64,000 bases of DNA from Azoarcus sp. DN11 (GTDB lineage Bacteria; Pseudomonadota; Gammaproteobacteria; Burkholderiales; Rhodocyclaceae), in assembly GCF_003628555.1 (NCBI RefSeq), contig NZ_CP021731.1, forward strand, positions 4,712,001-4,776,000, read 5' to 3'. Below are positions 6,201-48,067 of this stretch, piece after piece. The position numbers and the translations under genes were made by a program. The notes beneath the pieces are model-generated. The model searched no databases and was not told the DNA's origin. It worked only from the letters and a program-made list of their open reading frames with translations. Positions within the stretch are counted from its first letter, which is position 1. The number at the start of each line of letters is the position of its first letter.

Positions 6201-7145
6201 ATGACGAAACGCGTACTGGTGATCGGCGGCAGTTATTTTTCCGGCCGGGTATTCGTCGAGGAAGCGCTGAAGATGCCCGGCGCCGAGCTGCACGTCTTCA
6301 ACCGCGGCCATTTCCCGCTGCGCATGGAAGGCGTCACCGAGCATGTCGGCAACCGCGAGCACCCCGAGGAGGTCCGGGATGCGATCCCCGGTGGCGAATG
6401 GGACGCGGTTGTCGATTTCTGCGCCTACACGCCCGCTCACGTTGAAACGCTGCTCGGGAATCTGCGCGGTCGGGTTCGCCAGTTTCTGCTGATCAGCACG
6501 ACGACCGTCTACCGGAACCCAAGCGGCGGGCCGCTCGACGAGAACGCCCCCCTGCTCGACGGTCCGCAGCCGGAACTGGGCGAATACGCCGGTTACGGCT
6601 ATGAGAAATGCCTCGCCGAAGACGCGGCCCGGCGCGAATGCGAGCGACTGGGGATCGGCCTTACTGTGCTGAGGCCGGCGATCATCTATGGCTATTACAA
6701 CTACGCACCGCGCGAGACGTATTTTTTTGACCGCCTGCGTAACCGCGAACCCATCGTGATACCCGACCCCACGCGGTCGTCGTTCAATTTCATCTGGGTC
6801 GTGGATATGGCGCGCCTCCTGTGGCGCTGCATCGGAGAGCCCGGCGTGGTCGGGGAGACCTTCAATCTCGCCTCGGGCGAGGCGGTGACCTACTCGCGCA
6901 TCGTCGAGGCGCTCGGCGGGATCGTCGGCAAGCCGGTCGAAACCTTGCCGCTGCCGGTCGGGGAAATCACGCGCCGCAACATTCCGCTGCCCTTCCCGCT
7001 CGACGGGCCGCTTCTTTACAGCGGCGCGAAGATCGACCGTCTTTTCGGGTTCGAGCACACGCCCTTCCACGTCGGCCTGCGTGAGGCGCTGAAGTACTAC
7101 CTGATGACGAAACGACGCGAGGCCGCAGTTGGCGTGGCGCCATGA
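6201..7145 (+). CDS. NAD-dependent epimerase/dehydratase family protein
   Basis: 314 residues, atypical/extended SDR type, beginning at the ATG at 6201 with GGAGA upstream. It has an N-terminal nucleotide-binding glycine motif (GGSYFSG), a TTTVY segment and a YGYEK (YxxxK) catalytic pair near residues 133-137. Substrate unknown; similar proteins act on nucleotide sugars or isoflavone-like compounds. The stop overlaps the next start (ATGA). Confidence 0.75.
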   Translation: MTKRVLVIGGSYFSGRVFVEEALKMPGAELHVFNRGHFPLRMEGVTEHVGNREHPEEVRDAIPGGEWDAVVDFCAYTPAHVETLLGNLRGRVRQFLLISTTTVYRNPSGGPLDENAPLLDGPQPELGEYAGYGYEKCLAEDAARRECERLGIGLTVLRPAIIYGYYNYAPRETYFFDRLRNREPIVIPDPTRSSFNFIWVVDMARLLWRCIGEPGVVGETFNLASGEAVTYSRIVEALGGIVGKPVETLPLPVGEITRRNIPLPFPLDGPLLYSGAKIDRLFGFEHTPFHVGLREALKYYLMTKRREAAVGVAP

Positions 7146-8698
7146 ATGCCGACCTGATCCTTTGCAATCTCGTTGCCTTCACGCCCGGAGCGCCGACTCA
7201 CGGTGCGGACCTCGTCGCCATCCGCAATGGTCGTATCCTGCACGTGGGAAACCGCTCGGCGCGCGCGTCCCTCACAGGCCCGCACACGCAGGTCGTGGAC
7301 TGCCAGGGGGCAACCCTGATTCCGGGTTTCAACGACGCGCACTGCCACCCGGTCGCCTTTGCGATGACAACCCGCCATGTCGATTGCGGGCCGCCGCGCG
7401 TCGCGAGTATCGCCGATCTCGTCGACGCCCTGCGCGCCCGTGCGGTCGAGACGCGCCCCGGCAACTGGCTGCGCGCGGCGAACTGCGACCCCGCGACTCT
7501 TGCCGAGCGACGGCTGCCGAACCGCTGGGAGCTTGACCTCGCGTCGCCCGCCCATCCGGTGATCGTCGTCGAGCGCAGCGGGCAACATTGCGTGCTCAAC
7601 AGCCGCGCGCTCGCGCTATGCGGCATCGATGAGTCCGCGCGCTCGTCCGACGCCGGCGCAATTCACCGCGACTCCGCGAGCGGCCACGTCAACGGCATCG
7701 TATCCGGCAACCACGCCCAGGTCGCCGCCGCGCTGCCGCCGCTCGCGCCCGACGAGGTCGAGGCTGGATTGCGCGCTGCCGACCGCGTCTTCCTCGAATC
7801 GGGGATCACCTCCCTGCAGGACACGAGCTGGTCGAACACGCCTGCACATTGGCACGCGATGGCCGACTACAAGCGGCGCGGCCTTGTCACACCGCGCGTA
7901 TCCTTGTGCGTCGGCGCCGACAGCATCGAAGCGTTCGCCGAGCTGGGGTTGCGCACCGGAAGCCCCCATCGCGACTGCGCGCCGGAAGCGCTGCGCATCG
8001 GCGCGGCGAAGATCGCGCTCGACGAGAGCACGGGCGATCCGGATCCGCCGCAGGCGCTGCTCGACGCCACCGCGCTCGCGGCGCACTGTGCCGGGTTCCA
8101 GCTCGCATTCCACGTGCCGGACCTCGTGCTGCTCGACCGCTCGCTCAACACGCTCGCATGGTTGGACGAGGCCGGCCTCACACCGTCGCTGCGGCCGCGC
8201 TTCGAGCACTGCCCGGCCTGCCCGCGCGAATGGCTGGACCGCGTCGCCGCGAGCGGCGCGATCGTCGTCGCCCAGCCCGCGCTGCTGCCGCTGGCCGCGC
8301 CGGCGCTGCATGCCTCTCCGCCCGACCCGGCGCAGCCCCCGCTCTTCCCGTTCCGCTCCTTCCTGCGCCACGGCATCCCGCTCGCGTTCGGCTCCGATGC
8401 GCCGCTCGCGTCCTGTGCGCCGCTCGAAGGCCTGAAAGCCGCCGTCACACGGCGCGACGATGCAGGCCGCGCGGTTGCCGCCGAAGAAGCGATTGCGCTC
8501 GCCGAGGCGCTGCGTCTCTACACCCGGGGCGGCGCGTGCGCGAGCGGCGATGAGGACGCGACCGGGACGATCGCAGCCGGCCGGCGCGCCGACCTCGTGC
8601 TGATCGAAGGCGCAGGCGATTGGGCTGGAGCCGCCGACCTGGCGCGGGCTCGCGTCGCGATGACCCTGATCGGCGGACGGGTGGTGTGGGCGCGCTAG
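7142..8698 (+). CDS. Amidohydrolase family protein (YtcJ-like)
   Basis: 518 residues. It has an N-terminal beta-sandwich start, the metal-site motif GFNDAHCHP near residue 62, and a C-terminal FGSDAPLAS supplying the conserved aspartate. Length and layout match YtcJ/ExeB-like metal-dependent hydrolases. Substrate is unknown. It is translationally coupled to the epimerase and ends about 70 nt before the convergent sensor kinase gene. Confidence 0.75.
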   Translation: MNADLILCNLVAFTPGAPTHGADLVAIRNGRILHVGNRSARASLTGPHTQVVDCQGATLIPGFNDAHCHPVAFAMTTRHVDCGPPRVASIADLVDALRARAVETRPGNWLRAANCDPATLAERRLPNRWELDLASPAHPVIVVERSGQHCVLNSRALALCGIDESARSSDAGAIHRDSASGHVNGIVSGNHAQVAAALPPLAPDEVEAGLRAADRVFLESGITSLQDTSWSNTPAHWHAMADYKRRGLVTPRVSLCVGADSIEAFAELGLRTGSPHRDCAPEALRIGAAKIALDESTGDPDPPQALLDATALAAHCAGFQLAFHVPDLVLLDRSLNTLAWLDEAGLTPSLRPRFEHCPACPREWLDRVAASGAIVVAQPALLPLAAPALHASPPDPAQPPLFPFRSFLRHGIPLAFGSDAPLASCAPLEGLKAAVTRRDDAGRAVAAEEAIALAEALRLYTRGGACASGDEDATGTIAAGRRADLVLIEGAGDWAGAADLARARVAMTLIGGRVVWAR

Positions 8699-8766
8699 CG
8701 CCGCAAGCGCATCCGCTGCGCACGGGGCCATACGGGAACCGCGCCGGGCAGCGGCCGCTTACGGCG

Positions 8767-11700
8767 CTACTGCCCGTTCGCCCTGAGCGGCCACGGCGCC
8801 GCCTTGACCCATCCGTCAAAGTCGCCCACCGGCATCGGCGGGCCGACGTAATAGCCTTGCGCCTCGTCGCATCCGAGGGCGATCAGGCGTTCGAAGATTT
8901 CCCGGTTCTCGACGCCTTCGGCAATCACCCGGATACCCAGGCTGTGGCCGAGCTCTATCGTGGAATGCACGATCACTCCGGCATCGCGGTCTTGCAGCAT
9001 CGGAAGCACGAACGACTTGTCGATCTTGATCGCATCGATGGGCAGTTTCTGCACATACGCGAGCGACGACCAGCCGGTGCCGAAATCGTCGATGACGATG
9101 CGAAAGCCCCGGTCGCTCAGGCGACCGAGCGTCGTTTGGGCAGCATGCGGATCCACCATGATCGAGCTCTCCGTGATCTCGAGTTCGATCCAGCGCGCCT
9201 CCGCGCCCCAGGTGATCAGCGCGTTCTGCAGGTATTCGTTCAGGCGCGGATCGGCCAGATTGCGCGCCGACAGGTTGATCGCGATCGGCACGCGCAAACG
9301 CTTCTGCTGCCAGCGGTGGCAGGCCGCCAGAGCGGCGTCTGCGACCCAGCGCGTGAGCGGCGCGATGAGTCCCGTGCTCTCGATGAGCGGGACGAAACCA
9401 TCGGGAGAAATGAGGCCGTAGAACGGATGCTGCCAGCGCGTCAGGGCTTCGAGCGCGACGATTTCGCGGGTATTGAGATCGAGCTTGGGCTGGCAGTAGA
9501 GCACCAGTTCGCGCCTTGCGATCCCCGCGCGCAATTCCCCCATCAGCTGCAAGCGGCGCGGATTGTACGGATCCTGCTCGGCGCTGTAGAGCGAGTGGGA
9601 CTTTCCGTCCTGCTGCGCGCGGTAGAGCGCGACTTCCGCGTGGCGCATCAGGACTCCCGCTTCGTCGCCATGACCGGGAAAGATCGCGAGGCCGACGTTG
9701 GCGCCGATCTCAATGCCGAAATCGGCAAGCTCGAACGCTTCCTCGAAGCGGGCGACGAGGCGCTCGGCCAGTTCCGAGGCGGCCTGGGCGCCGAGACCGG
9801 GACAGAGCACGGCGAATTCGCGGTCGCCGCAATAGGCGAGCGCGTCGTCCGGGTGCAGTACGGACCGGATCCGCGGGCCGATATCCTGTAGCAGGCGGTC
9901 GCCGTGCGTCTGGCCCAGCGTGTAGGTGATCTCCTTGAAACGCTCCAGCGAAACGATCAGCAAGGCGAATGGCCGGCCGGCGGCACGCGCGGCGGCGACC
10001 GCCTGCTGCAGCATCTCCGTGAGCTGCGCGCGATTGGGCAGATCGGTGGTGGCGTCGAAGAACGCGAGGTGCCGGACCCTTTCCTCGGCGACCTTGCGAG
10101 CCTTGAGGCTGCGCTGCAGCGACCGCTTGTTCGAAATGAGCTGCCGGGCCAAGGCGACGAGGTCCACGTTCTGGGTCGCGAGCTCTTGCTGCAAGGCGTC
10201 GCGCGCCTGCTTCATCGTCACCAGGTTCCGCACGCGGGCGCGCAGCTCGTGCGGCGAGAACGGCTTGGTGACATAGTCCTGCACCGATTCGGCCAGCAGT
10301 TTCAAGCGCAGCTCGGCATCGGCGCTCGCCGAAAGCATCAGCACCGGCAGCTGGGCGAGCGCCGGGCGGGCGCGCAGTTCGCGCACCAGTTGATCGCCGT
10401 CGAGCGTCGGCATCACCAGATCCGTGACGACGAGGTCCGGCGGCTCGGCGAGCGCCAGCGCGAGGGCCGCCGCCCCATCGGCAGCCGGCGCGACGCGATA
10501 GTCGGCGCCGAGCACCTCGACGATGTATTGCCGCATGTCGGCATTGTCCTCGGCGACGATGACGAGCGGCAGGTCGTCCGCCGCGGGCCGATCGCGCTCA
10601 ACCGCCTTCACCGCGTCGAAGGGCTTCACGGCCCCGATGACCGCATCGATGTCCCGCAACTCGTCCGCCGCAGGTCCGGCTTCGCGCCCGGGCGCGACCG
10701 CCGATCGCCGCGGCAGTTGCACCTCGAACAGCGCACCGCCTTCGGGCGCGTCCGATACCGCCACCGTTCCCCCGTGCAGTTCGGCGAATTCCTTCACGAT
10801 CGCGAGGCCCAGTCCGGTTCCCCCGAATCCGCGCATTTCGCCGCCCCGCCCCTGTGCGAATCGATCGAAGATGACCGGGCGCATGTCCGGCGCCACGCCC
10901 GGCCCGCTATCGCTCACGCGGAGCAGCACGCGGTCTGCCCCCAGGGCTTCGAGCGCACATCGGACTCGCCCGCCGATCGGCGTGAATTTGAAGGCGTTGG
11001 ACAACAGGTTCAGCACGATGCGGGTCATCTTTTCGGAATCCGCTGCGGCGACAAGCGTAGCGGGCGTCGCCACTTCGTAAGCGACGGAACGCTGCGGCGC
11101 GAGTGCTTCGAAATGGGCCGCAACCGTGCGGACCAGATGTGCAAGATCGACCTGCAGACAGTTCGCCCGCAGCTGGCCGGCGTCGAGCTTTGCGAGGTCG
11201 AGCAACTCATTGACCTGCTTGAGCAGCATCGCCGCGTTGCGATGGATGACTCCGACGTCGCGGCGCTGCAAGTCGGTGAGATTGTCCCCGTGCGCCAACA
11301 TCGACTCGGCAGGCCCCATGATCAGCGCCAGCGGCGTGCGCAACTCGTGGCTCAGGTTGGCGAAGAAACCGTTCTTCAGCGCGTCGAGCTGACGCACTTT
11401 GTCAATGAGCTGCTGCAATTCCGCGTTCTTGTGCGCGAGCTCGATCTCTGCGTGCTTCTTCTCGGTGATGTTGCGGCCTTCCGGCAGCAGAAAGACGACC
11501 CGCCCCTGCTCGTCCCGCACCGGCTGCAGCGAGAAGTCGATGACGACCCGCTCCTTGCCCGCGGCGGCCCCGTACACTTCGAGATCGCATCGGACGAATT
11601 CGCCTGTCCGCGCCCGTCGCACGAGATCATGCGCGACCTCGCGCAACTCTTCCGACACGGCCCACCAGCGCGCTTCCCAGAAAGGCTTGCCCCGTATGTC

Positions 11701-42800: not shown

Positions 42801-43266
42801 CCGACGGGCGGGCGCAAAAAACCGTTGTGCTGCACACCCCTGTTTGCCCGAGTAGTTCCTACTGTGGGGGGACCTGCCGACTAATCCTAACTCCAGACTG
42901 TGGGGTTCGAGATGCGACGAGTATGAAGGGATAAAAGCAGAGTCCGACCACTATGCGGACGTTTCGAGTCTGAGCTGCTTCCAGACATTTGGGAGTACCG
43001 GTTCTCCTTATTTGCGTAGCTCAGCAGGGCCAGAGTCCTCGCTAGCTAGACACCGCACCGCCTCCAAAGCAGCAGAGAAGATTGGTCAGCGCCGAGACTC
43101 TCAGAGCGTTATCGGAATGGGACCGTCGTAGCCAGCACTTACAACATTCTGGTTCGAGTTGGCGACCGCCGGGGACACTTGGACAAGGGTCAGCGTCCAC
43201 GCATTTCGGACCTCGGGTTCGTGCTCGCCCTCCCGGCCCGCGGATCCGCGCCCCCCTCATCGTCAC
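42801..43266. other. Gene-free left border of the cargo operon
   Basis: 466 nt with lower GC than the flanks and no credible gene, tRNA or ubiquitin-like ORF. It separates the patatin gene's stop from the ICE leader at 42.7 kb and probably contains the cargo insertion boundary. Confidence 0.5.
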
Positions 43267-44436
43267 TCAAAGTTCGGGCGCATAGGTATCCACAAGGCAG
43301 CGAGTCAGCTGCTCGCCCCGCTTGCTGAGCTTTTCGATGTTCCCCTTCGACATTGGGTTGAAATTCGTCGGGTAGTCGATAACCTGATCACGACTGACCA
43401 GGTCGGCAGGCCGGACCGGCAGCGCGCTATCCCGCTGGCCGAGATACGGCATGAGAAACCCCTGAATCTCCCCGCTGGCCGCCATCCGGTGGAGGAGACT
43501 CTGTGTCAGCGTCTGCGTCCGCCGGTGGATAGTGATGACCGTCGCCAGCATCCGCGACATCCAGAATGTCGGCCGCCTCGCCCCAGACGGCATCCCCTGG
43601 CCGGCATCACACGCAATGATGAAGTCCACCGGGAACACATTGGTACTGAACTCGCTTGAGCGCCCAGGTAGCATGCAGGACACACCAAGATTGTCGTAAA
43701 CACCCCCGTCCGTGACGATGACGCGATGCTTCGTTTCGACACCGTTCTTGGTGAATGTCAGGTAGTGATCGAGCGCGGGCAGGAATGCAGGGAATGCCGC
43801 GGAAGCGGCAACCGCGGTGGCGACGTGCGGGGTATCGGTCAGCCTGCCGAACCGCCAACATCCGCTCTCAACGGAGCCATAGCGGAATGCCGTCTCGGTA
43901 CGGAGCTCGGCCGCATTGATGACAACCGAGAGCTCTCGGCGCCCGACAGCATCCATGCGCCGGTCGCCGAAGTAGCAACGAACGAGGTGGCGCTCGAAAG
44001 CCGTCGTGAAGCTCGCAAACCGTGGGGCAAAGTCGAGGATCTGCTCGGCGATCGTTACTAGCCACTTAGGCCGTAGCTTTACGAGGCTCAGCAACCATCC
44101 CGTGAGCTGGAGAGTCCGCGCCAGAACGGCAGCCGGGCCGGCGAGGATCGTGGCGACCACAATCTTAGGCAGTTCGAACGACAAGAGCGTCTCGCGGGCA
44201 ATTCCCCACACCATGCCGCGCGAGAGCGCCGCCTCGACTCGACGCGCAAAAGCTTCGAATGGTTCATCGCTGTAGGCATAGAGCGCCGCGATGACACTGC
44301 CGCCCGAGACCCCCGAAAGCACAGCGACCTTGTCGAGAATTCCGCGGTCGTGAAGCGCACGCAGGCAACCCAGGTGAAAGGCGATGGCCCGAGATCCGCC
44401 ACCCGAGAGGGCCAAGCCGATTCTCGAGGAGCTCAT
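43267..44436 (-). CDS. Patatin-like phospholipase, probable effector
   Basis: 389 residues from the ATG overlapping the upstream stop (ATGA). Oxyanion motif GGGSR (residues 12-16), nucleophile elbow GVSGG with Ser44, and DGG motif with Asp243 form the Ser-Asp dyad. A hydrophobic stretch around residues 92-120 could touch membrane. Patatin phospholipases (such as CapV) are membrane-degrading effectors of abortive-infection systems; that role here is inferred from its partners. Confidence 0.85.
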   Translation of the reverse strand: MSSSRIGLALSGGGSRAIAFHLGCLRALHDRGILDKVAVLSGVSGGSVIAALYAYSDEPFEAFARRVEAALSRGMVWGIARETLLSFELPKIVVATILAGPAAVLARTLQLTGWLLSLVKLRPKWLVTIAEQILDFAPRFASFTTAFERHLVRCYFGDRRMDAVGRRELSVVINAAELRTETAFRYGSVESGCWRFGRLTDTPHVATAVAASAAFPAFLPALDHYLTFTKNGVETKHRVIVTDGGVYDNLGVSCMLPGRSSEFSTNVFPVDFIIACDAGQGMPSGARRPTFWMSRMLATVITIHRRTQTLTQSLLHRMAASGEIQGFLMPYLGQRDSALPVRPADLVSRDQVIDYPTNFNPMSKGNIEKLSKRGEQLTRCLVDTYAPEL

Positions 44437-46718
44437 TGTTGCCCTCCATCCTCTTCCTCGTGCCGCGCAATGAAGACGAATTCGTTGCGCCGGTAGAGGT
44501 AGTAGTTTTCTTCGCGCCTCGTTGCGGCGTACCCTACGATGAGCATGACCACCTGGCGCGGCGGAAACTCCTGGAAGTGGAGCAGCTCCAGCATCGCATT
44601 GAGGTCGTCTTGGCTCGGCCGGCCGCGACTGATGGGGTGCGTATGCCAGATGCCGATGAAGCGGCTCGACTTCCCACTCGCCACCGATTTGAACGCGTTC
44701 AGTTCCTTCGTGCCGGCAGTCCCGCACAGAAACTGCATTTCAGTCGCGGTACTATCCGGCGGCGGCCCGCTGACACTATCGACCCAGATTACCTGATGAG
44801 CGTCGTCAACTTCACCGAAGATGAGGCCGCCAGTTTCGACCCTGTCGGAACGCGTGCGTGCGATGCGCCTCAATTCTGACGCCATATCGAGCGCGGCAAC
44901 ATCCGAGCGCAGCACAGCGTAGCCGTGCCTCTGCTCGCTATGACGAGCGTAGCCCTTGAACGTGTAGCTCAGGCGCCGCTTACTATCGTCCGCCCGCAAC
45001 CACGATGCGGCGACGAGGTCCAGACTTGCCGCATCGGGCGCAAGGCTTTCGATGCGAGACAGACCGATGTTCAAGAGGCCCGCTGCGTGGTGGTCAATGT
45101 CGGCCGCCGAGCCGATGAACGTCGGCGCCGAGCAGCCTGGCTCCGGCTGAAACACCGTTACCGTCTCGCGCTCTGGCCAGAACGCCTTCGCCAGTGAATG
45201 GCCAGCATCCTTTGCTAACGCCTCTAATTTGGCCTGTCGCGCAATGTGATGCGGACCCCCACGGTACTGAGGCATCTTCACCAGCACCGATCCGTTTTCG
45301 GCCGCAGCACTGACCGACATCGACAGCATTGGAATCGGAAGGCTCTGTGCCTTCAATTCCTCTTCGATGCGATGGGTTGCGCTCGCTGACGCCGTGGCGT
45401 CTATGACCAAGTCCCATTCCTTGAAGTCGAAACGGGACAGCGCCTGATTGGCGAGGTTACCCTTGCCCACAGTGACCAAGCATTCAAGGCCAATGGCCTG
45501 CAAATGCGCTTGCAGCGCGGTGGCCTTTTCCGAGCCGATGTCGCTGTCCGCATAGCGCTGCCTGACGAGGATTCCAGGCTTCACTATGCCGTAGTCGACG
45601 AGATGCAGTTTGGCGGCGCCAGAGCGCAGAACCATCTCGGCCACCGCCGACCCCAGTGCTCCGCAACCGAGGAGCAGGACCCGTTTCTCAGAGAGGGCAG
45701 CGAGCAGCGTTCCGCCGTCTCGCCGGTTGACGATCTCAGGCCGGTCTTCGAGGACGTCGCACCACCTGACGCCTGCCTTAACCATCCACTTGACGAGCTC
45801 GTCTCGCGCGGCTTCGTCTTCCCCCTTGCTCCGCACCATGGCGCGGAGCGTCTTCAGCGTGTCCGGACCAATTTCCCAAACGGTCAGGTGCGGCTTAAGC
45901 GGCTCGCCGGCCGCCTTGCGCCGCATCGGAGCGCCAAGGACGAAATATGCGGGCTCCTCCTCTGAGCCGACCAGGGAGAAGAGTCTCAGGAGGGAGTACA
46001 GCAAGCCGAACGACAGCCCCGCGTTCTCGACGAGTTCGATGAGATCGTTGACCTTCGTCGGAAATTCGGTCGCGAGCGGCTTGTCGAATAGGATGGCGGC
46101 AGCGATCGGATGTCCAGGGTCGGTATCGCCCCAATCATCTAGCTTGGTCCACCCGACGAGGTCGAAGCGGTCACCCCTGACTTTGCGCAAGTCCGCACGC
46201 CCGATCCAAATCCCGTCGTCCGCCATTCCGGCAGGTGTATCAGCTCTGACGACGAACGTGGTCGAGGACGTGGTGTAGGCGACGGGCGGATGCAGAGGCG
46301 CATCATCAGGGTCCAGCTCGCCCTTTCCCGCCGCGCGCATCCACTGCTCTACCCGGTCAAAGAAGCCGAACATGCCATCGGACGGCTCGTACTCCGTCTC
46401 GCCCGATTGATAGAGGCAGATCGAACTGCCCCACTGAACGTGCGGCGTTCCGATGAACCGCGTGTGCTTGAAATAGATGTCGGGTTTCTTGAATGGGAAG
46501 TCCGGATGAACGTGCAGGCTTATTCGCTCACGGTCTCGAAATGCGAGACCGTTTCTGGTTCGGTAGTCCTTCGTTTCGAGCGATAGGTGGACCCAGACGT
46601 AGCCCTCCGATTTCGACTCGGCCGCTAATTCAAGAACCTCCAGAGCACCGTTCGAGTTGTCGGCGATATCGGCGAGTTGAAGAAGGGCGAGCTGCTGACC
46701 TCGACTCAGTTCGGGCAT
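44433..46718 (-). CDS. E2-E1-JAB ubiquitin-like conjugation/deconjugation fusion protein
   Basis: 761 residues. N-terminal E2-like (UBC) domain with HPDFPFKKPD and candidate catalytic Cys101 in GSSICLYQ. Central ThiF/E1 domain with ATP loop GCGALGSA (~351-358) and candidate E1 cysteine Cys529 in PEPGCSAPTF. C-terminal JAB/JAMM metalloprotease with Glu628, HTHP (His692/His694), Ser702 and Asp705. All three active sites look intact. Equivalent to Cap2 plus Cap3 of type II CBASS in one chain. It can be expected to attach a target protein's C-terminus to a substrate and to trim or reverse this. Overlaps both neighbours. Confidence 0.88.
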   Translation of the reverse strand: MPELSRGQQLALLQLADIADNSNGALEVLELAAESKSEGYVWVHLSLETKDYRTRNGLAFRDRERISLHVHPDFPFKKPDIYFKHTRFIGTPHVQWGSSICLYQSGETEYEPSDGMFGFFDRVEQWMRAAGKGELDPDDAPLHPPVAYTTSSTTFVVRADTPAGMADDGIWIGRADLRKVRGDRFDLVGWTKLDDWGDTDPGHPIAAAILFDKPLATEFPTKVNDLIELVENAGLSFGLLYSLLRLFSLVGSEEEPAYFVLGAPMRRKAAGEPLKPHLTVWEIGPDTLKTLRAMVRSKGEDEAARDELVKWMVKAGVRWCDVLEDRPEIVNRRDGGTLLAALSEKRVLLLGCGALGSAVAEMVLRSGAAKLHLVDYGIVKPGILVRQRYADSDIGSEKATALQAHLQAIGLECLVTVGKGNLANQALSRFDFKEWDLVIDATASASATHRIEEELKAQSLPIPMLSMSVSAAAENGSVLVKMPQYRGGPHHIARQAKLEALAKDAGHSLAKAFWPERETVTVFQPEPGCSAPTFIGSAADIDHHAAGLLNIGLSRIESLAPDAASLDLVAASWLRADDSKRRLSYTFKGYARHSEQRHGYAVLRSDVAALDMASELRRIARTRSDRVETGGLIFGEVDDAHQVIWVDSVSGPPPDSTATEMQFLCGTAGTKELNAFKSVASGKSSRFIGIWHTHPISRGRPSQDDLNAMLELLHFQEFPPRQVVMLIVGYAATRREENYYLYRRNEFVFIARHEEEDGGQQ

Positions 46719-47872
46719 CCAAAACCTACCTTGGTCGAAGGCGTCGCGTCGCTTCCGCGGGCCGCGCTGACCGCCGCCGACAAGGCGCTCGTTCCCTTTT
46801 CCTGGCTCTTCGTCTCAGCGTAGTCGATGTCTGAACCGTCCACGGTGAACTTGAGCGGTTCCGCATGCCCGCCATCGTCGTGCGTGCAGACGAACCCGCC
46901 GGCCGCGAGCTCCTGATAACGGGCCTTCGCTTTGGCATGAGGCGGGTTGTCCCCGTCCTTGTTCGACGCGGGAATGCAATTCGCGCTGGCCACGACGTAA
47001 CCCGCGCTGACCTGATATGCCCCTAGGTCGTCGAGGATGTCCTGTTTAAGGAGCTCCTTGCCGTCCTCGTCCTGGTACATCACGGACTTGCTGCAATGGT
47101 GAGGCGCGAGCAGCACCTGCCACCGCAGATTCTCCTCCTTCCCGTGCTCCTTGGTGACATCCAAGATCTTCCGGATGACGGGGTATTTGTGGTCGCCGAA
47201 GAGCAGCACCCCTCCCACTGAAGGGTCATCTCCGAGCACGACCTGCATAGCCAAGCTCGTGTCGTTCCGGTCCCCAACATCCTCGTCCGAGCCTTGCTTG
47301 AAGGGGCCGTGGATGAACGCGCGGAATTCGCCGGTCAGGTCTTCGCCATCGAGCGATTCCACGACGTCGCCAGGCACGCTAAAGAACTCGGACGGAAATC
47401 CCTGGTAGTGTTCTTCATCGAGCAGATCGTCCCAGCCGACGAGACGCACCCGGTTTCCAGCGCCAGGGTCGCCACCCGCCTCAACCGTGGCGGTTACGCG
47501 CCGGTGCGCTTCGTCGCGGAACGCCTTCGCATCGTCGCCGAGGCTGTCGGGGTCGTCGTCGTGTTCACGGAAGATGCGCGGGGAAAACCACAGCTCGCCG
47601 ACCGTCACCCGCTCCAGCAGTTCTTCGAAGCCTTGAATGTGGTCCTTGTCAGGATGCGTGATGGCGAACGCCGAGAGGTAGGGCTTTCCATCCACCTTCG
47701 GCAGATGTTCCTCAAGGTAGTCGATGACCGGAGCGCAGTCCGTCTCCTCGTCTTCCGACTTCTGACTGTGTCGGAGGTCAACCTGGAACACGACCTCGTT
47801 CGGACGCACCACGAACGTCGTGCTGTCACCCGTGCCGACCGGCCAAAAATATACGCACTTCTCGTCGAACAT
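46706..47872 (-). CDS. Metallo-beta-lactamase-fold hydrolase (ComEC/Rec2-like)
   Basis: 388 residues from the ATG at 47872, preceded by a G-rich site; an upstream TTG at 47893 is possible. MBL metal motif THPDKDH (His73, Asp75, Asp77, His78), GVLLFGDH and LLAPHHCSKS supply further metal ligands. The C-terminus is low-complexity (Ser/Ala/Thr) and ends VGFGCPN, overlapping the E2-E1-JAB gene by 13 nt. It opens the three-gene operon. Substrate (nucleic acid, nucleotide or other) unknown. Confidence 0.82.
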   Translation of the reverse strand: MFDEKCVYFWPVGTGDSTTFVVRPNEVVFQVDLRHSQKSEDEETDCAPVIDYLEEHLPKVDGKPYLSAFAITHPDKDHIQGFEELLERVTVGELWFSPRIFREHDDDPDSLGDDAKAFRDEAHRRVTATVEAGGDPGAGNRVRLVGWDDLLDEEHYQGFPSEFFSVPGDVVESLDGEDLTGEFRAFIHGPFKQGSDEDVGDRNDTSLAMQVVLGDDPSVGGVLLFGDHKYPVIRKILDVTKEHGKEENLRWQVLLAPHHCSKSVMYQDEDGKELLKQDILDDLGAYQVSAGYVVASANCIPASNKDGDNPPHAKAKARYQELAAGGFVCTHDDGGHAEPLKFTVDGSDIDYAETKSQEKGTSALSAAVSAARGSDATPSTKVGFGCPN

Positions 47873-48067
47873 CTCGTCCCCCCCATGTTCCAACGTAAGG
47901 CTACCTTATATGCCCTAAGTGCAAATATCATAACAAAACCAATGCGTGCAGGATGAACACTACGGCAACGGCCGTCACGGGTCGTCTTGAATTCTGATCT
48001 CACCTTGTAGGTCAGCACACATGGAAGAGAGCGGGCCACACCCATCAGGGCATGGTCCGCTTGAAGA

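Follow-up and report, generated by a model that had tools for sequence, protein, structure and literature searches.

Organization of the operon and its relation to a named family

Can an operon that carries the E2, E1 and JAB modules and the phospholipase effector of a type II cyclic-oligonucleotide-based anti-phage signalling system (CBASS), but no cGAS/DncV-like nucleotidyltransferase (CD-NTase), serve in defence, and which protein would its conjugation machinery act upon? We addressed this question for an operon on the minus strand (47872-43267) of a 64,000-nucleotide stretch of Azoarcus sp. DN11 (contig NZ_CP021731.1, positions 4,712,001 to 4,776,000), hereafter the window, whose numbering is used throughout. 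The operon is probably a 6A-MBL type anti-phage system that would act like type II CBASS, with a ComEC-like metallo-hydrolase in place of the CD-NTase. An earlier note on this DNA had described three genes on one strand, and their coordinates, strand and overlaps were confirmed: a metallo-beta-lactamase (MBL) fold hydrolase (46706..47872, minus strand; 388 residues) overlaps by 13 nt a triple-module E2-E1-JAB protein (44433..46718, minus strand; 761 residues), which in turn overlaps by 4 nt a patatin-like phospholipase (43267..44436, minus strand; 389 residues).

Judged by curated sequence models, the MBL and E2-E1-JAB pair is a member of the NCBIfam "anti-phage 6A-MBL system", not a new system. 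The MBL protein matched NF058524 (6A-MBL_enzyme) with 281.9 bits (cut-off 220) and the E2-E1-JAB protein matched NF058523 (6A-MBL_cap2_3) with 379.4 bits (cut-off 320); the two genes form the adjacent same-strand pair of that system. The 6A-MBL models found no match in the window patatin, nor in five patatins, four transmembrane (TM) proteins and one second MBL. NF058525 was considered as a third named component and rejected, since this model describes a Thoeris protein.

The earlier note had mentioned E2/E1/JAB and MBL operons from comparative genomics, and these were indeed tabulated in 2006: in Iyer et al. (PMC1779556), row 6a of Table 1 places a triple-module E2-E1-JAB gene almost always beside a metallo-beta-lactamase gene, usually as two genes, and the word "patatin" is absent from that text. 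The name 6A-MBL presumably derives from this row. The window operon shares with the 6A-MBL system the same pair, adjacent, co-occurring and over both cut-offs, and differs from the usually two-gene description of 2006 by its patatin gene. The pair was therefore known already; the patatin-bearing branch, the conserved glycine tail and the evidence for an effector slot are added here. A literature search, in which coverage of subscription journals was thin, returned no paper naming 6A-MBL or its patatin; because most subscription papers lay beyond the search, this does not show that 6A-MBL is unpublished.

The MBL protein combines a ComEC-like metal site with a glycine tail

A Pfam scan assigned no family to the MBL protein, and a sequence search of the PDB with it (P0001) gave no match. 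In an AlphaFold2 model built from nine sequences (predicted local distance difference test score (pLDDT) 76, predicted template modelling score 0.82), residues 1-353 were folded save for a few loops, and by structure comparison the closest solved fold was the MBL domain of ComEC/Rec2 (PDB 9ic4). His73, Asp75, Asp77 and His78 were kept in 45/45 and Asp227, His258 and His259 in 46/46 rows of a 46-row alignment, gapped rows being excluded at each column. The HxDxDH motif, second Asp and HH pair, which we take to be the metal ligands of ComEC-like MBL hydrolases, are present in the window protein and invariant in every row holding the column. The likeness to the ComEC/Rec2 domain is one of fold and of the same kind of metal-site motifs; the window protein differs in standing alone and in having a C-terminal tail. 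Neither a search of phage genomes with P0001 nor a search of viral contigs with two MBL alignments (A1 and A4) returned a match.

The tail itself (residues 354-388; 46709..46813, minus strand) had pLDDT values below 50 in the model. Outside the folded core the MBL sequences share little, and a glycine close to the end is the one conserved feature. In the window protein this is Gly385, the last residue of a VGFG motif (residues 382-385; 46718..46729, minus strand), which is followed by the three-residue extension CPN and is the predicted conjugation residue. Members of the window clade end in VGFG (once IGFG, once VGYG) plus CPN, CSS, SGFQ, R, AE, AA or D, and outside it the ends are mostly RAG (e.g. 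PRAG), HG or YG, followed by 0 to 6 residues. Gly385 was kept in at least 90% of the rows of a 39-sequence alignment. With the broken MBL of locus L030 excluded from the tail counts, glycine lay within the last seven residues in 45 of 46 MBL rows (near copies included) and was terminal in 21; the sole exception, an Aeromonas locus with a separate JAB gene, ends in Ala. About half of the tails (24/44) extend past the glycine. In all six MBLs scanned, the NCBI model stops before the glycine tail.

When sequences were clustered at 50% identity, glycine occurred within the last seven residues in 15/16 MBL clusters versus 143/348 clusters of neighbouring open reading frames (ORFs), with p 2.4e-5; p-values refer to this plain count, and the control ORFs are mechanical ones, some of which are surely not genes. 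A tail prediction set beforehand held in all nine distinct viral contigs (L091, L092, L098 and L106-L111); of these, L106 nearly duplicates L028, the MBL of L092 is a distant one, and that of L111 has a terminal Ala preceded by GGGGY. The start codon of the next gene overlaps the Gly385 codon, and the tail might be an artefact of this overlap. We rejected this explanation, since the loci use all four glycine codons and differ in how far the glycine stands from the stop (0 to 6 residues).

Two published accounts bear on this tail. CD-NTases of type II CBASS keep a Gly or Ala at the C-terminus only when Cap2 and Cap3 accompany them, and it is through this C-terminus that Cap2 conjugates them (PMC10097602); in BilABCD a JAB peptidase exposes the C-terminal Gly of BilA ahead of E1/E2 transfer (PMC11354881). 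The 6A-MBL loci resemble type II CBASS in having a conserved C-terminal Gly/Ala on the partner enzyme, here on the MBL protein and 0-6 residues before its end, and differ in that about half of the tails run on beyond the glycine. Because of this close parallel with CD-NTase tails, the MBL protein is probably the conjugated substrate of E2-E1, and JAB is probably the processing enzyme that trims its extension. As a positive control, L096, L097 and L099 have JAB as a gene apart from E1-E2; the proteins encoded ahead of these genes, presumed to be CD-NTases by position only, end in GFA, GFA and RLG.

Five loci (L025, L044, L046, L048, L071) encode, besides the pair, another MBL-like protein as well as a multi-TM protein. 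This second MBL ends in Gly in L025, L044, L046 and L071 and may be a further substrate.

The predicted conjugation machinery has intact sites and no constant CD-NTase partner

Pfam recognized three domains in the E2-E1-JAB protein, all on the minus strand: Prok-E2_A (7.9e-26; residues 38-163, 46230..46607), containing Cys101; ThiF (1.4e-19; residues 339-481, 45276..45704), the E1-type adenylation domain, with a conserved Cys529 beyond its end; and Prok-JAB (2.2e-9; residues 613-730, 44529..44882). Residues 225-444 aligned with Cap2 (7to3; 3.2e-10). Across 49 aligned rows, near copies included and gapped rows uncounted, conservation was 48/48 for Cys101, 46/46 for Cys529, 45/45 for both Glu628 and His692, 43/44 for His694 and 44/44 for Asp705; L024, in which E2-E1-JAB is split, was excluded from this alignment and from the trees. 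The catalytic or metal-ligand roles of the conserved MBL and E2-E1-JAB residues are ones that we take from their families. The operon is like type II CBASS in its Cap2-like E2-E1 with both catalytic cysteines, its JAB domain and its predicted phospholipase effector, and unlike it in that E2-E1 and JAB are one protein and an MBL hydrolase stands where a CD-NTase would be expected.

To look for a CD-NTase, we ran a single model, PF18144, over 21 system-bearing genomes, to which G496 and G517 (E2-E1-JAB without MBL) do not belong. It matched in 5/21, in one of them only below cut-off, and 16/21 had no match. The window genome has one match, at C1:2.03 Mb and outside the window (4.71-4.78 Mb), and the two genomes that share an identical 18 kb around the operon have none. 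A ubiquitin-like gene was not found in the operon, which consists of three overlapping genes flanked by genes of the mobile element; this sets it apart from BilABCD, to which it is otherwise similar if JAB here exposes the MBL glycine before E1/E2 transfer. A CD-NTase or ubiquitin-like protein as hidden partner is accordingly unsupported, PF18144 not being constant. A 74-residue ORF after the patatin gene (43042-43266) matched nothing in Pfam, and its reading frame is not open in the matching locus L023. The earlier observations that no CD-NTase or ubiquitin-like gene adjoins these enzymes, and that the MBL protein holds the sensor position, were both supported: the MBL protein occupies the CD-NTase place of CBASS and bears a conjugation-type C-terminal tail.

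The third gene very probably belongs to an exchangeable effector slot

The third protein, a predicted membrane-attacking effector, matched Pfam Patatin (PF01734) at 2.9e-20, and a search of PDB sequences with it (P0003) gave patatin-type matches (PlpD, 1.3e-5). It contains GGGSR, GVSGGS (Ser44) and DGG (Asp243) motifs. A GXSXG serine and a DG[GA] aspartate are what we take to be the patatin signature; both are present as Ser44 and Asp243, which were invariant in four aligned rows. The active sites listed in the earlier note (Cys101, Cys529, His692 and Ser44) are accordingly all present and conserved in relatives.

That note had singled out the patatin combination and suggested a search for co-occurrence of the three genes. 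The MBL and E2-E1-JAB pair does co-occur, and the patatin recurs in distant relatives and in two fusions, but it is one of several exchangeable effectors and not an obligatory third gene. Patatin relatives were found in 19/50 loci. Their position varies, from after E2-E1-JAB to before the MBL gene (L051) or on the opposite strand (L072). Patatin and E2-E1-JAB form one open reading frame in the genome locus L053 (7469-11005) and again in the viral contig L091 (587-4618), where the serine motif is AVSGG rather than GVSGG. Two further patatin-bearing loci appear disrupted. In L054 (10198-11386), on the Rhizobium plasmid pRLa11, the patatin relative is split into two overlapping ORFs; in L070 (3153-10198), E2-E1-JAB is broken into two parts separated by ORFs on the opposite strand, the pattern that an insertion would leave, and is flanked by MBL and patatin.

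Many loci without patatin encode, upstream or downstream, a small protein with several hydrophobic segments. At least two such segments were present in 29/30 listed slot proteins versus 8/218 control ORFs, the latter again mechanical and some surely not genes. Twenty of the 30 lie first or second downstream of E2-E1-JAB, an additional MBL-type gene preceding those of L025, L044, L048, L065 and L071; the other ten, mostly upstream and divergent, were picked for their membrane-like look. Blastp sorted the slot TM proteins into seven groups, three of which have one member each, with a further protein left on its own, so that four are singles. Ten TM proteins gave only weak Pfam matches, none over cut-off, and nine gave only weak PADLOC matches (best 0.0023), the tenth protein scanned being a WYL regulator. 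L030, L049, L050, L058, L078, L087 and L109 had no recognized effector; some of these loci are degraded or truncated where the record stops.

Mapped onto an MBL tree of 41 rows, the effector label changes six times, and well supported branches require at least five of these changes; the seven rows of the window clade all have patatin and form one side of a branch with support 100/100. Left out of the trees were L057, L058, L070, L083, L087, L098 and L111, as well as L047, L049 and L050, which have no MBL; the 41-row tree additionally omits L052, L086, L106, L073 and L046. Because patatin and multi-TM proteins alternate and the label changes repeatedly on the MBL tree, these sequence comparisons make it very likely that the third gene encodes an exchangeable membrane-directed effector, either a patatin or a small multi-TM protein, as in CBASS.

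The pair is sparse, mobile and found beside defence genes

E2-E1-JAB matches over cut-off occurred in 7/150 relatives and in 5/399 order, 7/369 class and 6/398 phylum genomes, each count including the window's own genome. In the phylum sample, the seven genomes with E2-E1-JAB at E <=1e-50 (six over cut-off) were the same seven that had MBL over cut-off (329 genomes). By tblastn, 247 plasmid records matched the MBL protein, of which 124 were from Klebsiella and 139 were typed conjugative. An E2-E1-JAB relative adjoined MBL in 20/20 plasmid loci picked for diversity from the listed matches; that of L087 is truncated where the record stops, and L083 has JAB as a separate gene. Four of the 20 (H38, H39, H55, H70) already bore a ThiF or Mov34 annotation. 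On plasmids the two relatives lie side by side in Pseudomonadota, Actinomycetota, Bacteroidota, Cyanobacteriota and Deinococcota, an association beyond what chance would give. Among 22 genome loci found by the E2-E1-JAB model, MBL adjoined in 19 (broken in L030) and not in L047, L049 and L050. In L047, a shortened E2-E1-JAB gene begins with a remnant of about 27 MBL residues (6210-6287), a sign of a deletion between the two. Near the E2-E1-JAB genes of L049 and L050 a large protein with 13 hydrophobic segments is encoded.

The window operon lies in a cassette of about 5 kb (42953..47984), delimited by an 89% match to L023, a Rhodocyclales metagenome-assembled genome; the rest of the 14 kb L023 locus had no match to the window. 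Two other genomes from this genus carry an identical 18 kb stretch around the cassette. The surroundings of the cassette hold TraG/D-type and topoisomerase genes together with DUF6094, DUF932, DUF3275 and DUF3577 proteins, domains that we take to be typical of conjugative elements. No integrase or relaxase family was matched among the 16 scanned window ORFs outside the operon. The cassette sits in a mobile element, in agreement with the placement first suggested for it.

The window genome also holds a second copy (L030, C1:3272000-3291000, locus 6921-10254), which looks degraded: the MBL gene is spread over two frames that overlap, and the E2-E1-JAB match covers just positions 3-631 of 665. 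Elsewhere, relatives adjoin restriction-modification, AbiE, RloB and WYL-regulator genes. On Klebsiella and E. coli plasmids, the copies in L081 and L082 have a WYL regulator on one side and umuD on the other, and no patatin.

A proposed mechanism and its alternatives

Sequence and model show the gene content, the intact sites, the glycine tail and its disorder, the exchange of effectors, the patatin fusions and the lack of a constant CD-NTase. Building on these, we propose that JAB would trim the MBL tail after Gly385, that E1 would adenylate this glycine, and that the MBL protein would then pass via Cys529 to Cys101 of E2 and be joined to an amine on a target. Because of the tail signature and the invariant catalytic residues, conjugation of the MBL protein by E2-E1 through Gly385 appears likely. 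JAB might also remove conjugated MBL. In the weakest step of the scheme, conjugation may prime or place the MBL phosphodiesterase, whose activity during infection would alter a nucleotide or nucleic-acid signal; this nature of the signal is doubtful. Finally, because of its intact dyad and its exchange in the slot with multi-pass membrane proteins, the patatin effector would be expected to degrade membrane phospholipid and abort infection. The chances are evenly balanced for a bolder reading, in which the part of the ubiquitin-like modifier is played by an active enzyme of metallo-nuclease type: JAB would expose its C-terminal glycine and E2-E1 would conjugate the enzyme, possibly to a membrane lipid or to the effector, arming an exchangeable membrane-killing effector. 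CBASS would in that case be one instance of a general rule by which E2-E1-JAB machines conjugate any sensor enzyme with a C-terminal glycine tail.

Several observations weigh against the main proposal of a CBASS-like 6A-MBL system. The seven-residue window of the glycine count and the motif classes RAG, HG and FG were chosen after the tails had been seen. Among twelve second MBL-type proteins, two of which are copies of a third, 4/12 end in Gly and 5/12 have Gly in the last seven, about the background rate and contrary to the prediction made for them; the four that end in Gly resemble one another. The MBL and E2-E1-JAB trees were only partly concordant (r 0.67, 22/43 splits), and the structure model of E2-E1-JAB was poor (pLDDT 58) and was not used. 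L049 (7284-9770) and L050 (7170-9539), in genomes G496 and G517 in the order listed, carry E2-E1-JAB with no MBL neighbour, and G258 has a partial MBL match and no E2-E1-JAB match. In G880, PF18144 has a match below cut-off some 4 kb away from MBL, and L067 and L074 have a 227-residue nucleotidyltransferase upstream (NTP_transf_2; Polbeta below cut-off). The window patatin had no strong match to PADLOC effector models (best 0.019).

Of the alternatives, the one that survives best, still unlikely, is that the MBL protein stands guard, destroying a signal or toxin substrate and so keeping the patatin or TM protein silent until phage interference frees it, with E2-E1-JAB tuning the level or location of MBL. 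An MBL fold of nuclease or phosphodiesterase type and effectors predicted to be toxic if free would suit such a role, which by itself does not explain the invariant conjugation machinery and the glycine tail.

Slightly less probable is that the MBL protein is joined to the effector itself or, in the manner of Atg8, to a membrane lipid, so that conjugation would be what brings the hydrolase to the membrane or switches on the phospholipase there. The fusions of patatin to the conjugating enzyme in L053 and L091 and the membrane-directed nature of the recognized effectors point this way, and a lipid target has been raised for CBASS cGAS (PMC10097602); no acceptor site was identified, and fusion may reflect co-expression only.

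A tagging role like that of Bil is improbable. The MBL protein would here be a bulky modifier put on virion proteins to spoil assembly, JAB would process the precursor only, and patatin would be a back-up toxin. The tails, in which brief and varying extensions follow a conserved Gly much as they do in modifiers that are processed, and the nearly invariant JAB residues are in keeping with this role, but a mere tag has no need of an invariant metal site, and some effector adjoins most loci examined and is exchanged.

Least probable is a role outside defence, with the operon as a modification system that serves housekeeping or transfer in mobile elements; this would fit the mobile location and the many plasmid records typed conjugative but not the sparse occurrence in genomes, the exchanged effectors, the AbiE, restriction-modification and RloB neighbours or the NCBI name of an anti-phage system.

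With the reading as a CBASS-like 6A-MBL system, an operon type that was uncharacterized in 2006 and is now named anti-phage by NCBI gains a concrete hypothesis. A single residue (Gly385) and a single extension (CPN) make it testable, and the exchangeable slot offers matched systems. If it is true, a second class of immune enzyme, unlike CD-NTases, would be conjugated via its C-terminus by a ubiquitin-type enzyme.
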